Origin: Anaerolineales bacterium
GTDB lineage: Bacteria; Chloroflexota; Anaerolineae; Anaerolineales; Villigracilaceae
Length of the DNA stretch: 64,000 bases
Direction of reading: 5' to 3'
Assembly: GCA_016744335.1 (NCBI GenBank)
Contig: JADGEO010000002.1
Location: forward strand, 1-64,000
A program made the position numbers and the translations under genes. A model generated the notes under the pieces. It did no database searches. It saw nothing but the letters and a program-made list of their open reading frames with translations, and had not been told where the DNA came from. Within the stretch, counting starts at the first letter, position 1. Each line of letters begins with the position of its first letter. Below are positions 20,454 to 54,775 of this stretch, in pieces.

Positions 20454-21548
20454 CTACTCCCCCTTCCCAAAAAGCACAACATAATAACCAAAACTATCAA
20501 AGAAGGCGTAGCCAATACCAATATCGGCATATTCTGTGCTAATGAGATTTTCGCCATGCGCTGGGTCTTCGGTATCCAATCTCCACCATTCTTTCACTTC
20601 TTCTGGGCTAAGGAGCGGATTACTCCCATAAACATTTTCTGTAACTATGGCTGTATATCCTAGCTCATCAACACGATCTTGAGGCGTAGACCCATCGGAG
20701 CCTACATGCTCAAAAAATTGGTTACAAGCCATATCTTGTGCATGGGCTTGTGCGGCATCTGATAATTCTTGGTTCATAGCATAGGGCGTTAATCCCTCAT
20801 CTACTCTATAGGTATTAACAGAGGCAAAGACTCCATCACGGCGCGTACCGTCAAGAGAATAACTACAAGCCGCGGCTCCGTTAGTTGGCGTGACACTGAC
20901 CACAGGTGTTGAGACATCACTCGATGTTGCATCAACTTCAGGCACTCCACTACCTACAGCGTTAAAAATGAGCCACAAACGCGAATCGCCTTCAAGCGCC
21001 ATTGGCAAGCCTTCTGGATTTTTGAGGACAAAATAGCCTTCATAAAAGCCAGGGGTGCTAGGCGCAACCAAGTCAACAGAAACATCTGCACTCTCTCCTG
21101 GATTTGTACGTGATACAGGAGATGTTTCGGGTGCCCCAAAAGAGGCTCCTGAATAATGGGCTACTGAATAGCCTTCCCACCATATACACGTGCCTGTATT
21201 TTGAACACGCCATGTTTTCGTGAAAGTTTCTCCACTATTAACTTCGCTATTATCGGGAATGGTCACATCGCTAATAAATTTACCCGAGTTAATACAATCT
21301 ACCGCATTCTCTGGCGGTGAGAGCGTTGCCGTAGGAGTAGGTGTAGAGATGTTCTCTGCCGGGAGCGTTGGCACAGATGTATTCGTCACAGCGGGAGGCT
21401 CCGTAGCGGGCGCAAGCGTCGAGGTTGGAGAGTCTTGCTCTGCTATAGTAGCAGTAGCTGTTGGTGTTTCTGCCCCACAAGCTGAAATACTTATTGCAAT
21501 TAAAAGAATCACTTGTATCCAAATGAGAGAAAGCAACTTTTTATTCAT
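20454..21548 (-). CDS. Lipoprotein with NBR1-type FW domain and CAP (SCP/PR1) domain
   Basis: A 364-residue lipoprotein. Signal peptide with S-I-S-A-C, P/T-rich linker (about 30-80), FW (NBR1-like Ig) domain at about 85-195 with N-T-G-T-C-I-W-W-E-G-Y and the late G-F-Y-E-G-Y-F-V-L motif, a second short linker, and a CAP domain at about 230-364. The CAP part has V-N-T-Y-R-V-D-E-G-L, A-Q-A-H-A-Q-D-M-A (active-like His), F-F-E-H-V-G-S-D-G and G-H-G-E-N-type sequence A-H-G-E-N-L. Such CAP proteins are extracellular and bind small hydrophobic molecules or have unknown action. ATG at 21548 has AAGGAG 9 bases upstream. Confidence 0.82.
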   Translation of the reverse strand: MNKKLLSLIWIQVILLIAISISACGAETPTATATIAEQDSPTSTLAPATEPPAVTNTSVPTLPAENISTPTPTATLSPPENAVDCINSGKFISDVTIPDNSEVNSGETFTKTWRVQNTGTCIWWEGYSVAHYSGASFGAPETSPVSRTNPGESADVSVDLVAPSTPGFYEGYFVLKNPEGLPMALEGDSRLWLIFNAVGSGVPEVDATSSDVSTPVVSVTPTNGAAACSYSLDGTRRDGVFASVNTYRVDEGLTPYAMNQELSDAAQAHAQDMACNQFFEHVGSDGSTPQDRVDELGYTAIVTENVYGSNPLLSPEEVKEWWRLDTEDPAHGENLISTEYADIGIGYAFFDSFGYYVVLFGKGE

Positions 21549-21648
21549 ATTATTCTCCTTATAGCTAAAGTATATCAAAAAAAGGTCATGCTTCAAGTCT
21601 AACCTTTAACTCAGACACGTGCAAACACGAGCGTTACCACGTCACCTT

Positions 21649-47970: not shown

Positions 47971-49332
47971 TTATTCTACAACTTGAATGATGTTATAGAA
48001 ATAACAAATTGTTTCGCCGCCCATGGTGATTGTCCAATATTCGCCGAACTCGCCAACCGCACTTGGGGATGTCATCGGTACGATAACGCTATAAATTTCA
48101 CCAGTCGCAACATCTGCGGTTAGGTTCAAGTCGACAATATCGCTAAGGGGCTGGTCTGTCACTGCGCCTGTCTTTACAATAAGCGCATCTGCTACTGTCC
48201 AGGTTGCTGTTCCAACATTTTCAAGATCCCAAACCATATCAAAAGTTTCGCCACCTTTGAAGGTCGTTCCATCTATAGGGTCTTGTGAAACCAACTCACA
48301 GGTGACTGTGCCTGTGGGGGGAACAGACGTGGCAGGCGGAATCTCTGTAGCAGGAGGCGGGGAAGATGCTTCTACAACAGGGACATTCTCTACATTATAG
48401 GCGGCAACATAAGAACCATGCACCCACCCCAAGCCATCGGCGACATATTGTGAACCGACATTTACTTGCCACCAGAGACCATCTGCACTTTTCCCTGTAA
48501 TTGTAGCTGAAGCACTCGGTGCCGCAACACCCAAAACGGGATAATTGGTTGCTGGACCGCTACGCACATTAAGATAATCGGTAGCTACGCCATAAGGTCC
48601 TGTAGTATCTGGGGCGGGGAGTTCGCTAGCCTGTGGTTCAGGCGGGGTTGCGATTACGGCTAAGTCTTCGGGGACATTCTCTGTGGTGACAAATTCTTTC
48701 TGTACCCATCCATGCCCGTCTCCGACAACATCAGGATCAAGGCGTACAACCCACCACAATCCATCTTCGCTAACGCCGATGAGCAATGCACTAGCGCCAG
48801 GTTGACCAATACCATAGGCAGGGAAATGATCACTAGGACCACTGCGCACATAGACCCCGTCCGCGGCGATCACGGCAGGTTGTCCTTCTTCTACAGGCTC
48901 AAATTCTGCTGTAGGCGGAACTGGTGGGGCTTCGATTGTAGGTAAACCCTCTGTAGAGGTTACTGTGGAAAAATTCACATCCACCCACCCAGTACTGGGA
49001 GAGACAATGGGCATATCAACGGCGTAATAAGCACCATCGGTGCTCACGCCCAATAATTTAGCCGTTTCACCACCCAGCATTAATTTATAAACTGGGTATT
49101 GCGTGCCAGGTCCACTGCGTACATTCACATTTTGGCTTGCCGTAAGGCTTTGTTCATCAGGATTAGCTGTGGGCAAAATATCTATGGGTTCACCTTCGGG
49201 AGGAGAGGCTATGGCTTCACCCTCTGCAGGTGCGCTTGTAGCGGCATCATCTCCCGATGAGCAGGCACTGAGAAGTAATGCCATTATCAATAGAGAGAAT
49301 ACTAAAACACGCCATATTTTCGTCTTTTTCAT
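47971..49332 (-). CDS. Lipoprotein with three SH3b domains and an NBR1-type FW domain
   Basis: A 453-residue lipoprotein. Signal with L-L-S-A-C (Cys24). Three bacterial SH3 repeats follow: N-V-N-V-R-S-G-P-G-T-Q-Y-P-V-Y, D-G-V-Y-V-R-S-G-P-S-D-H-F-P-A-Y and D-Y-L-N-V-R-S-G-P-A-T-N-Y-P-V-L, each followed by G-W-V. The FW domain (about 345-453) has L-E-N-V-G-T-A-T-W and ends T-I-C-Y-F-Y-N-I. SH3b domains bind cell-wall or peptides. The domain set differs from the two other FW proteins of the window, which suggests a shared surface module. Neighbour 49393 is a membrane protein, with a 60-bp gap. Confidence 0.87.
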   Translation of the reverse strand: MKKTKIWRVLVFSLLIMALLLSACSSGDDAATSAPAEGEAIASPPEGEPIDILPTANPDEQSLTASQNVNVRSGPGTQYPVYKLMLGGETAKLLGVSTDGAYYAVDMPIVSPSTGWVDVNFSTVTSTEGLPTIEAPPVPPTAEFEPVEEGQPAVIAADGVYVRSGPSDHFPAYGIGQPGASALLIGVSEDGLWWVVRLDPDVVGDGHGWVQKEFVTTENVPEDLAVIATPPEPQASELPAPDTTGPYGVATDYLNVRSGPATNYPVLGVAAPSASATITGKSADGLWWQVNVGSQYVADGLGWVHGSYVAAYNVENVPVVEASSPPPATEIPPATSVPPTGTVTCELVSQDPIDGTTFKGGETFDMVWDLENVGTATWTVADALIVKTGAVTDQPLSDIVDLNLTADVATGEIYSVIVPMTSPSAVGEFGEYWTITMGGETICYFYNIIQVVE

Positions 49333-49966: not shown

Positions 49967-51802
49967 TTACTTGCTAAAAGACATAATGTCTTTAGCAACT
50001 TCTTCACCGTTTTCGTCTACGAAATCAATAAAGCTAAGCATATTTAGATCAATCTTATATTCTTCAACATCTTCAAGCAACGATAAGAAATTGGCTTCTT
50101 GCTCCATAATGCCAGCCGGCTCAGCACAGGTTGCTTTTGGTGCAACTATGTCACTAAGTTCAAGCGCAGTGCCATCTGTTGTATATTTGCCTGAAAGGGT
50201 ATTACACCCTGTATTGCCCGTAAAACTCCCATCATCGGCAAAAATTAGCTCTAAATGTGTTCCCGAGATTGGCGGGGATAAATTTTCATCATCGCTCTTG
50301 GCTAAGATACCACCGAGAACCCAAGTGGCATCAAGCAAATCGTCACCAGGTTCCCCTGTAGAAGGCTCATCAGTCGGGATGGGTGTCTCAACCGGCACAG
50401 AAGGAGTCTCTGTGGCAACTACAGGCGTACCTTCTGGCGTAGCAGTTGGGTCACCAGGGTCGGCAAGAACTTCAACGGCAACCGTAATATTTTCTCCAAA
50501 TACTTCCTCATCTGTGTTGTGCATTTGCCAATAGCCTACATATTGAGCGACATCTTCTGGAGCAACCAAAGCAACGTAGACATCATATTCTTGGTTAGGC
50601 TCTACAACACCTTCAATTGCAGTAGGTTGCCCGTCCATTTGCGCTTCGGGCACATTGCCGCGCACAAAGTTGAGGTAATAGGTATCATCCCAAGTACAGG
50701 TACCCGTATTTTTAATGCGCCAACCTTTTTGAAAGGCTTCGGCTGGTGCAACTATGGGGAATTCTGTTAAATCCTTATCATCATAATTTAAGTCTTTAAC
50801 AAGCTCCATTTCGTTTGTACAAGCAATTGGTGTTTCTGTTGCGGCTGGCGTTTCGGTTGGCTCAACTGTAGGCTCTGCAGTGGGTGGCGGGATAATATCT
50901 TCGGGCTTCAATCCAAGATACTGCTCTACCAATTGGTCAACTCGACCTTCATTTTGCAGATCTAATAATGCTTGGTTAATAACTTCTCGAAGCGTATCTG
51001 CCCCATTAGGAACAGCAATTGCTAATTTTTGCTGGTTAAGATTTTGCCCTACTAACATCAACTCAGGATTAGATAATGCCAAAGTGGCAGGCTGTAAATC
51101 TAAAATAACTAAGTCAAGGCGTTTAAGTGCAAGGTCGTTAATGGCATGTTCTGATTCAGAATACGCAAAAAGTTGGTCTTGAGAAATAAGATTGGTATTA
51201 ACCAACTCTTCTTGTACCCAAGTTTGGTAAACAGAAAACTCTTGCACACCAATTTTTTTGCCCGCCATTTGGCTAGGTTCGGTAATTTGACCAATACCTG
51301 AATCTGCACGGGCTAAAATGCCATCTTGACTCACATAATAGATATTTGAAAAATCAAAATCAGCTTCACGCGCATCGGTAACAGAAAGCGCGGCAATAAC
51401 CGTATCTGATTGCCCAGCGATTATAGTTGCCCCTAATTTTTCAAAGGCATAATCTGAAATTTCTACTTCAACGCCTAATCGGCTGCCAATTTCACGAATT
51501 AGAGCTGCATCAAAACCATCTACTATATAATTGTCGTTATAATATGAAAAAGGCGGGTAATCGGCAGAGGTAGCTACTCTTAACACGCCTGCTGTTTGAA
51601 TTTTTGCCCAAGAATCATCTTGTGCTATAGGGGTTGGGCTTTCTCCTTTTTGTGAGTTGAAAAACCAAAAGCCCCCACCTACCATCACTAAACATAATAT
51701 CAGGATGAGCAATATAGCCAAAAGTGGAAAAGTTTTTTTACCTTCTTCCTTGGTTATATTTTCGTCATCTTCTTCATAGACTTCTTCATTTTCTTCATAC
51801 AT
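49967..51802 (-). CDS. Membrane-anchored fusion: amino-acid-type solute-binding domain, FW domain and META domain
   Basis: A 611-residue protein. An acidic N-terminus (E-E-N-E-E-V-Y-E-E-D-D-E-N) and a membrane helix at about 27-50 are followed by a solute-binding family 3 domain at about 65-300: V-L-R-V-A-T-S-A-D-Y-P-P-F-S-Y, V-D-G-F-D-A-A-L-I-R-E-I and G-K-K-I-G-V-Q. Then an FW domain at about 325-440 (I-K-N-T-G-T-C-T-W-D-D-T-Y), a P/T linker and a META/HslJ-like domain at about 485-600 (W-V-L-G-G-I, F-A-D-D-G-S-F-T-G-N-T-G-C-N-T-L-S-G). It has no ABC permease nearby. It looks like a surface-tethered ligand sensor or scavenger. Confidence 0.83.
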   Translation of the reverse strand: MYEENEEVYEEDDENITKEEGKKTFPLLAILLILILCLVMVGGGFWFFNSQKGESPTPIAQDDSWAKIQTAGVLRVATSADYPPFSYYNDNYIVDGFDAALIREIGSRLGVEVEISDYAFEKLGATIIAGQSDTVIAALSVTDAREADFDFSNIYYVSQDGILARADSGIGQITEPSQMAGKKIGVQEFSVYQTWVQEELVNTNLISQDQLFAYSESEHAINDLALKRLDLVILDLQPATLALSNPELMLVGQNLNQQKLAIAVPNGADTLREVINQALLDLQNEGRVDQLVEQYLGLKPEDIIPPPTAEPTVEPTETPAATETPIACTNEMELVKDLNYDDKDLTEFPIVAPAEAFQKGWRIKNTGTCTWDDTYYLNFVRGNVPEAQMDGQPTAIEGVVEPNQEYDVYVALVAPEDVAQYVGYWQMHNTDEEVFGENITVAVEVLADPGDPTATPEGTPVVATETPSVPVETPIPTDEPSTGEPGDDLLDATWVLGGILAKSDDENLSPPISGTHLELIFADDGSFTGNTGCNTLSGKYTTDGTALELSDIVAPKATCAEPAGIMEQEANFLSLLEDVEEYKIDLNMLSFIDFVDENGEEVAKDIMSFSK

Positions 51803-52553: not shown

Positions 52554-53297
52554 TTATTCTTCTTCTTTTTCTTCTTCTTTCTCTTCTTCTTCTTCAAACG
52601 TTCCGACAGTACCTTCAATGAGAAGTTCGTCTTCGGTTTCAGTTGTAGATATAACGGCAAAGCCTTCTTCTGTAGCCACAAATTGACTGCTTGTTACACC
52701 GTCTTCATTTGCAATCATATAACCGCCTTCAACCCCATTTTCTCCACCAGCTACACGCCCAGCAGTAAAGCCTTCTTTAGAGGCAATGGCTGTATAGGCT
52801 ACATCGTGACCCACTTTGAGTTGCTCGGCAATATCAGCTTGCAGTTCTAAAGTAAAGATATCGGCTTCGGCTTCAGCTAAAGCTTTTTCTACTTGTGATA
52901 CCCACTTATGTTCCACTACTGCAATAATGGCGGAGGAGCCGGGGGTCAATCCTTCACCAAGTGCTTTCAAACGATCGTCTGAAAAACCACTATCGCGCAA
53001 TTTAGCAGTTAATCCACCTACTATGGCACCAACTACAGCAGGAACTGCTAAAGCAGGACCAGCAAGCAAACCAATAACACCACCAGCGATGCCACCAAGA
53101 ACGGTACCTTTGCCACCACTCATATCGCCAGTTTCTTTGATATGAAGTTTGCCTTTTTCATCTTTTTTCAGTACAGCCGCATTATCAATTTTGATTAGAT
53201 TTGCTCTTTGGGCTTTCTTAAGCTCTTTCAAAGCTGATTTTGCTGTTTTTTCATCATTGAACGCCGCTACAATTAGTTGAACAGGATTCTCACTCAT
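52554..53297 (-). CDS. DUF1269-type glycine-zipper protein with acidic tail (copy 2)
   Basis: A 247-residue protein. It starts P-V-Q-L-I-V-A-A-F-N-D-E-K-T-A, the DUF1269 alpha/beta start. The glycine-zipper membrane part is G-G-K-G-T-V-L-G-G-I-A-G-G-V-I-G-L-L. D-R-L-K-A-L-G-E-G-L-T-P-G-S-S-A-I-I-A-V-V is the family C-terminal motif (about 110-130). The last 75 residues are an unusual extension ending in a run of about 15 Glu with few Lys. The extension may be extra to the family. It lies 138 bp downstream of the 53436 homologue, probably one transcript. Confidence 0.82.
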   Translation of the reverse strand: MSENPVQLIVAAFNDEKTAKSALKELKKAQRANLIKIDNAAVLKKDEKGKLHIKETGDMSGGKGTVLGGIAGGVIGLLAGPALAVPAVVGAIVGGLTAKLRDSGFSDDRLKALGEGLTPGSSAIIAVVEHKWVSQVEKALAEAEADIFTLELQADIAEQLKVGHDVAYTAIASKEGFTAGRVAGGENGVEGGYMIANEDGVTSSQFVATEEGFAVISTTETEDELLIEGTVGTFEEEEEKEEEKEEE

Positions 53298-53386
53298 TTT
53301 TATTTCTCCTAGATATAAAGTTCTTTTATTTTTAGTTTCTCTATATTAAAAAACGCCCTTTAAAAAGGAATGCCCCCTTTTTAGAA

Positions 53387-53417
53387 TACCTGACAAGTCT
53401 TTCAGACTTGTCAGGTA
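53387..53417. terminator. CCTGACAAGTC hairpin
   Basis: tacctgacaagtct pairs perfectly with agacttgtcaggta around ttc. It follows the stop of the 53436 gene. Same family as 36502 and 37054. Confidence 0.8.
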
Positions 53418-53435
53418 CTTTCTTAAATTAAACGT

Positions 53436-53924
53436 TTAGGCAAAGGCGGCTTTTAATTTTTCTTCTTGCTCGCCAGAGAGGTTTGAAGTTAAAAGTTCAA
53501 ACTCTAACCCAGCTTCATTGATTGCCGCGGTAACTTTGTCTAGCACTACGTCACTTGTCATCAAAAAGAGTGCTGAGGTACCTTCGGTAACATTCACACG
53601 GATTGATTCTATGAAGCTATCATCTATACCATAATCAGCAAATTTACCAGCTAATGCACCCATAGCGGCACCGATTGCCATGCCAAAGAAGGGTACGAAA
53701 AAGATAAGGCCAAAAAGCATACCCCAGAAAGCACCGTCTAAGGCACCACGTCCTGTTAACTCAATCATCTGTTTGGTTTTGGGGGCTTTTTTGCCCTCTA
53801 CCCAAACTACCGAAGCGGCGTCTTGCAATGTAATAAGTTTTTGTTTGGTCAAGCCTTTGACCAAGTCGAGCATTTTTTCTGCACCTTGTGTATCTTCAAA
53901 TTTGAATACGGTAATAGTTGACAT
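53436..53924 (-). CDS. DUF1269-type glycine-zipper protein (copy 3)
   Basis: A 162-residue protein. T-I-T-V-F-K-F-E-D-T-Q-G-A-E is the N-terminal strand and helix, followed by G-R-G-A-L-D-G-A-F-W-G-M-L-F-G-L-I-F-F-V-P-F and G-A-A-M-G-A-L-A-G-K-F-A-D-Y-G-I (membrane zipper), then F-I-E-S-I-R-V-N-V-T-E-G-T-S-A-L-F-L-M. Members of this size, without the acidic tail, are the commonest form. It lies next to the 52554 homologue. Function unknown; many members respond to stress. Confidence 0.85.
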   Translation of the reverse strand: MSTITVFKFEDTQGAEKMLDLVKGLTKQKLITLQDAASVVWVEGKKAPKTKQMIELTGRGALDGAFWGMLFGLIFFVPFFGMAIGAAMGALAGKFADYGIDDSFIESIRVNVTEGTSALFLMTSDVVLDKVTAAINEAGLEFELLTSNLSGEQEEKLKAAFA

Positions 53925-54004: not shown

Positions 54005-54463
54005 TTACAGCCCTAATAACTGTGCCTTCTTGGCTTCAAAATCTTCATCGCTGATGATGCCTTGATCGCGCAAGCTAGCTAGTTTTTCAAGTTCGCCAAG
54101 GTAAGAGGGCTCTGCATCTACAGGCGGTGCCACTGGGGCTGGAGCAGGTGTTCCAACAGGCGCAGATTGTGCATCCAAAGCCTTTTGCTCTTCTGCCGTC
54201 AATGATTGCCCTTCAATCCCAAGCTCATTCATCGCTGTGCTCAAATCTTCATCTGTTAAATCTGCTGGGGGCATACCTGTATGTTCTTCAACACGTTGTG
54301 CGTCTTGCTGAGACATCTTGACCGCCGCATAAGTGCCGCTCGCCGCAATTGCAACCATACCACCTACGAGAATCATCCTTCGGCGTACCCTACGACGCGT
54401 TCTACGACGCGCTCTGCGACGCCCTCTGCGCCTGCCTCTTCGTCTTCCCGCCGCTCTTCCCAT
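54005..54463 (-). CDS. SHOCT-domain protein with an Arg-repeat N-terminus
   Basis: A 152-residue protein. Residues 2-30 consist of R-R-R-x blocks (x = G, A, T, V) with 20 Arg among the first 30 residues, then a membrane helix (M-I-L-V-G-G-M-V-A-I-A-A-S-G-T-Y-A-A-V) at about 31-49. A middle acidic region, a Pro/Ala linker and a C-terminal SHOCT domain follow (L-G-E-L-E-K-L-A-S-L-R-D-Q-G-I-I-S-D-E-D-F-E split here; ends K-K-A-Q-L-L). Such a basic N-terminus could bind nucleic acid or acidic lipids. ATG at 54463 is chosen because AGGTACTAAA lies upstream; a frame extends 15 bases further. It is the first gene of the DUF1269 group. Confidence 0.78.
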   Translation of the reverse strand: MGRAAGRRRGRRRGRRRARRRTRRRVRRRMILVGGMVAIAASGTYAAVKMSQQDAQRVEEHTGMPPADLTDEDLSTAMNELGIEGQSLTAEEQKALDAQSAPVGTPAPAPVAPPVDAEPSYLGELEKLASLRDQGIISDEDFEAKKAQLLGL

Positions 54464-54775
54464 TTTTAGTACCTCCATAATTTGATTGTATTATGATATA
54501 CACCATCCTAATTATACCTTATTTTTAAGGTTCATTTACTTATTGATCGCATTTTCACATTTTTATTGAATACACCATTTCTTAAAAAGCGGTGCGTAAG
54601 CCAACGACTATTTAGATGCCTCGCCTACCTATAAAGTTTCTTTTCTGAGACCCTTTACTAACTATCATTAGATGCCAAAGATGTTTTTTTCTTATCTTCT
54701 CTCTAACTTAACCTATCTGTTTTTTAATTATGCATGGGTTGATAGAAATCATTGCACGAAGTGATTTCCATCCTA

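Follow-up and report, generated by a model that had tools for sequence, protein, structure and literature searches.

On the reverse strand of the window, i.e. the whole stretch of 64,000 nucleotides from an Anaerolineales genome that was analysed here, lies a gene for a membrane-anchored protein in which a family 3 solute-binding protein (SBP) domain, SBP_bac_3, is joined to an FW and a META domain (Table 1). We put the probability at about 0.5 that this protein is an anchored extracellular receptor of the amino-acid type, standing outside any ABC import operon, whose ligand alters the engagement of an FW/META platform. The SBP domain would close on a small ligand, probably an extracellular amino acid. 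FW and META, complemented in long relatives by about three Ig-like sandwiches, would serve as stalk and platform in contact with another protein or with the cell envelope; ligand binding would alter this contact, and the signal would leave via a partner encoded elsewhere, not nearby. The model is weakest at this last step. Bacterial FW domains and META domains have no settled function, and a conserved family that joins both to a fold with a testable ligand offers a direct handle on them. It could also show whether these bacteria, which are largely uncultured, detect amino acids outside the cell but do not take them up.

The open reading frame starts with ATG and is preceded by an AGGAG-like ribosome site. 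The coordinates given in the first-pass annotation are exact, and three Pfam domains exceed their cut-offs and confirm the fusion described there: SBP_bac_3 (PF00497; E 3.8e-30, 104.8 bits against a gathering threshold of 26.4), FW (N_BRCA1_IG; residues 350-445, E 1.7e-20, 74 bits against 28), and META (E 2.3e-15, 57 bits against 24). Amino-acid SBP models of NCBIfam match only well below their own cut-offs, so the protein fits no named subfamily. The membrane anchor, also claimed in that annotation, was recovered as an N-terminal transmembrane segment, visible as a helix in the structure model and in the hydropathy, and the three domains would face outward. By a crude rule, the protein has no lipobox, Cys37 falling within the membrane helix; many relatives do have one, and the anchors across the family differ under the same rule, being either a lipobox or a plain transmembrane segment. 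Chloroflexota are mostly monoderm and their SBPs are usually tethered, so membrane anchoring is ordinary for a binding protein. Neither Pfam nor the model reveals a cytosolic output or signalling domain in the window protein, the inside part being the short tail. The GC content of the gene (0.42) is near the window mean (0.44) and thus gives no compositional sign of transfer. Terminators (4 versus 3.0 expected) and promoters (12 versus 6.7, sd 2.6) are near chance and were therefore not used.

Table 1. Features of the SBP_bac_3-FW-META gene; positions are those of the window.
Feature	Position	Strand	Basis
Whole gene, SBP_bac_3-FW-META fusion, 611 aa	49967..51802	(-)	Open reading frame, Pfam
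Acidic N-terminal tail, residues 1-24, predicted cytoplasmic	51731..51802	(-)	Sequence, low pLDDT; topology inferred
Transmembrane signal anchor, residues 25-43	51674..51730	(-)	Model helix H25-43, hydropathy
SBP_bac_3 domain, two-lobed amino-acid-type binding fold, residues 74-297	50912..51583	(-)	Pfam, model, Foldseek
R145 codon, expected ligand-carboxylate clamp	51368..51370	(-)	R in 82/85 rows; role presumed from LAO/GlnBP
D235 codon, expected ligand-amino clamp	51098..51100	(-)	D in 76/85 rows; role presumed from LAO/GlnBP
FW (N_BRCA1_IG) domain, residues 336-445	50468..50797	(-)	Pfam, family alignment
Low-complexity Pro/Thr linker, residues 446-488, replacing the Ig-like sandwiches of long relatives	50339..50467	(-)	Alignment, models
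META domain, residues 493-591, with Cys533 and Cys559	50030..50326	(-)	Pfam, alignment

The AlphaFold model of the protein (mean pLDDT 81.5) is mostly above 90 in the SBP and FW blocks and about 60-86 in META, with a disordered linker around residues 467-514. The best Foldseek matches of the SBP domain are arginine-/ornithine-binding and other amino-acid SBPs (TMt about 0.8; ArgBP E 4e-21), and a sequence search of the PDB also places it among amino-acid binders. It has the fold and clamp residues in common with SBP_bac_3 proteins of polar-amino-acid (PAAT) importers, e.g. Thermotoga ArgBP, LAO, and GlnBP, from which the window protein differs in its multi-domain C-terminal extension and in having no linked permease gene. 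With LAO and GlnBP as numbering guides, the carboxylate clamp is taken to be R145 and the amino clamp D235. Both are conserved, as are T142 (81), Y82 (81), S140 (S or T in 79), and Q187 (77), counted over 85 rows, 8 of the 93 family members having been left out because of inserts or as outliers; R77, S72, Y14, D11, and Q122 of LAO are among the mutated positions listed in PDB titles. The pocket points to an amino-acid-like ligand. The side-chain positions S79 and V191 presumably differ from LAO, so the identity of the ligand cannot be read off, and F189 replaces a G present in 72/85 rows, so the pocket of the window protein itself may be altered.

The FW domain likewise shows strict conservation, with W361 and W371 kept in 85/85 rows and W425 in 84/85, and with Cys in 85/85 rows both at position 328, just ahead of the domain, and at 369 within it. 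The conserved Trp residues are common to NBR1-like FW proteins, and the META domain is common to the META/HslJ family, although HslJ itself is small, periplasmic, and stands alone, and META here would be the terminal module of a receptor. Both domains may serve as interaction modules: the FW domain of fungal Nbr1 binds protein cargo (a passage in PMC9233695), comparison with MxiM suggests a putative hydrophobic cavity in META/HslJ (a passage in PMC3270026), and proteins of the META/HslJ type have been linked to properties of the envelope and to oxidative stress (a passage in PMC11724541). The last of these associations would also suit a protein whose SBP fold has ceased to be a receptor for small molecules and works as an envelope adhesin or scaffold, or as a binder of peptidoglycan or other surface polymers, while FW, Ig, and META would be surface modules of a generic kind. 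We regard this as improbable. FW modules are common in the genome (12 places, versus none in 14/14 control genomes), so that the presence of FW says little on function, and SBP_bac_3 occurs fused to the murein enzyme MltF, an NCBIfam model matched below its cut-off; however, the amino-acid clamp is kept family-wide, a constraint not expected of a dead fold, and no enzyme domain was detected in 46 scanned members.

A comparison of the window's open reading frames of at least 100 aa with 12 permease and 3 ATPase references (1e-5) gave no match to either set and hence no ABC permease, in agreement with the first-pass statement that none lies in the surroundings. The gene is surrounded by genes for PEP carboxykinase, an AI-2E family transporter, a mechanosensitive channel, MutL, a multihaem cytochrome, two DUF1269 proteins, and other FW proteins, none of them an ABC permease. 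The two DUF1269 proteins are adjacent and of unequal length (52554-53924), and a SHOCT-domain protein (54005-54478) carries an Arg-rich N-terminus with repeated Arg triplets. Further FW fusions combine SH3_3 repeats with FW (47971-49332) and FW with CAP (20454-21596).

The same holds for the relatives. BLAST at 1e-5 with the 12 permease references returned no match among all open reading frames of 44 family loci (618,371 bases), nor in 35 further loci (388,556 bases) plus the window, the references all stemming from the window's own genome, so that a very distant permease could escape detection. With the three ATPase references, six ATPase-like matches appeared in the 44 loci, each more than 2.3 kb off, and four in the 35 loci plus the window, the nearest 569 bases off (in L199). 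Some contigs may figure in both sets under different names, and the sets comprise about 80 loci altogether; adjacent permease and ATPase genes, which mark the SBP of an ABC importer, were found neither there nor in the window. It is therefore well supported, together with the pairing of the orphan permease described below with another SBP type, that the window protein is not tied to its own ABC importer; it may act as a receptor or a scavenger in concert with a partner encoded elsewhere. The first-pass suggestion that ligand is not fed to a transporter thus stands for a linked importer; it does not extend to a distant, shared permease that is supplied in trans.

Such trans-feeding, in which the protein would be a transport SBP for a shared polar-amino-acid permease with FW/META as a mere stalk, is in our judgement rather unlikely; the permease could be, for example, that of contig C33 or of C56. 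In its favour, SBPs sharing one permease are known, and the window protein has kept its clamp residues. Its genome (G000; about 96% complete, with 3.62 Mb in 134 contigs) holds 43 BPD_transp_1 and four SBP_bac_3 places, and the PAAT permease model TIGR01726 exceeds its cut-off three times, twice in C56 and once in C33. In C56, two permease genes and an ATPase gene stand in a row with a binding-protein-like gene, a complete Aap-like set; C33 (L089:7046-8639) has a PAAT permease and an ATPase without an adjoining SBP, flanked by genes that we take to be HemW-like and PlsX-like. A further SBP_bac_3 place, C68 (L087:8370-10295), encodes a 641-aa double-SBP chain, SBP_bac_3 followed by Phosphonate-bd, adjoined by an ATPase and a 607-aa permease.

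Relatives of the C33 permease argue against this pair as the partner. They were found in 335/396 genomes of the class (1e-25), and 20 regions around matches were chosen, some for their high rank and some because the genome was of interest; the permease open reading frame was recovered in 19 of them (all but L162). A C68-type SBP (45-76% identity to that of the own genome) adjoins the permease in 14 of these 19 regions, an FW-type SBP in none; among the five exceptions, four end at a contig edge (L166, L167, L171, and L177) and one (L179) is truly without. The cognate SBP of C33 is thus most likely of the C68 type, and the orphan permease is an unlikely transporter for the window protein. Trans-feeding is further disfavoured by the sampled loci, where FW-type genes never adjoin a permease, and by four members in which three META domains interrupt the SBP past the clamp Asp and might hinder docking. 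The genome also encodes an SBP-type sensor, a 1343-aa protein with SBP_bac_3, PAS, and GAF (C89, L275:69-6778), whose gene overlaps that of an 893-aa PocR-PAS-GGDEF protein by a few bases.

Apart from META-rich lipoproteins, no neighbour gene is conserved in many of the 44 loci, so a partner of the proposed receptor, if any, must be encoded elsewhere. This finding, the missing cytosolic signalling domain, and the possibly altered pocket (F189) count against the receptor reading. The protein may sense or store its ligand, as proposed earlier; sensing by a stand-alone amino-acid SBP is already known, which makes the SBP-FW-META protein a variant rather than a new kind. Mycobacterial GlnH is a stand-alone SBP for which aspartate/glutamate sensing through GlnX and PknG is proposed (a passage in PMC6069109); like the window protein, it is an anchored amino-acid-type SBP, proposed to report levels and not to feed import (passages in PMC6069109 and PMC8546545). 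GlnH is encoded with GlnX and PknG, whereas the window gene lacks such an operon and has FW and META added. The GlnH-GlnX-PknG route itself is absent, as PknG_TPR (PF16918) has no match in the genome, although among the controls it does match in Corynebacterium glutamicum. FW proteins occur in chloroflexi, and their bacterial architectures are diverse, encompassing XRE-FW, tandem FW, and membrane proteins (Marchbank et al., PMC3357945, section 3.1); the SBP-FW architecture goes unmentioned in that section. In literature on bacterial FW/NBR1, on Chloroflexi FW/solute-binding, and on META plus solute-binding, with few subscription journals covered, the SBP-FW-META architecture was not found.

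The SBP-FW core recurs in the class. A search for relatives in 100 genomes gave matches in 100/100, mostly FW alone or SBP alone; those spanning SBP and FW came from G097, G053, and, distantly, G096 (24% identity). None spanned both in the eight other genomes of the genus (best E 2.9e-21, versus 1.9e-88 and 3.8e-87 in true relatives). Class-wide, 98/396 genomes match at 1e-22, and by hand count about 50 of 395 other genomes hold a match spanning both domains (query from 100 or below to 430 or above), often two each. In the phylum, 8/400 genomes match at 1e-40, the four from outside the class with SBP alone. A contig search with the single protein gave nothing, and one with the family alignment gave added loci. 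All 46 members of the first alignment have SBP and FW by Pfam, and 17 have META. The added loci raised the number to 126 members, or 93 once duplicates were removed. META, scored by a profile from six members including the window protein, is carried by 35/93, C-terminally in 31 and inside the SBP in four. The 93 comprise 39 long members without META, 28 long with META, 14 short without META, five cut by contig ends, four with META in the SBP, and three short with META.

The last group consists of the window protein, L180, and L181, the same domain order being confirmed in the latter two by Pfam. L180 and L181 belong to two other genomes, show 43-46% identity, and share no neighbours; synteny is likewise absent, their matches in the window being this gene and FW-type cross-hits. 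This recurrence, with that of the SBP-FW core in 93 compared members, makes a chance or species-specific fusion without function very improbable, even though the gene is patchy and missing from the eight other genomes of the genus; the conservation refutes a chance open reading frame.

In a tree of 93 rows and 390 columns of SBP and FW, built by a quick method, a branch with an SH-aLRT of 99 sets the three short META-bearing rows apart. They lie within a larger group of 27 rows, 24 with META, whose support is weak (85). As this group is mostly META-bearing, loss of the Ig-like modules in the trio would be the simplest reading. In a model of the long form L116 (mean pLDDT 83), these appear as three beta-sandwich modules between FW and META (about 490-572, 577-660, and 673-757). 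The presence of META needs at least eight changes on the tree, so META is easily gained or lost. The same-family relatives G053 and G460 fall in another clade, one with two FW domains, and the history of the gene is thus patchy; with the eight genus genomes lacking the gene, recent inheritance within the genus or family is unsupported.

META and SBP are repeatedly joined. Four members (L243, L249, L251, and L252) have three META domains inserted in the SBP_bac_3 fold, directly after the strand ending in D235; in the numbering of the window protein, the insert lies between about 235-239 on one side and 239-250 on the other. In L249, a single Pfam SBP_bac_3 match spans 85-655 with META within. 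No more than 6 kb away, a gene for a META-rich lipoprotein occurs in 11/44 loci, which are partly non-independent (L111 and L112 are near copies); three of these lipoproteins carry one to four META each by Pfam, one also DUF4377. Adjacent pairs of members occur in 15/77 loci, in 14 of them on the same strand. A broader reading, tentative and doubtful at present, is that of a surface amino-acid receptor family (SBP-FW-Ig-META, often as paired genes, with META-rich lipoproteins beside some loci) that is particular to this Chloroflexota class and reports extracellular amino acids without import. META and SBP would form one unit in which META reads or gates the binding state; such a unit would explain why META occurs C-terminally, within the SBP, and also as part of a gene close by. 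In one clade of transmembrane-anchored long members (L114, L116, L118, L182, L183, L195, and L219), the members share an N-terminal tail that is acidic, about 50 residues long, and contains Thr and Tyr; it is a possible cytoplasmic contact site.
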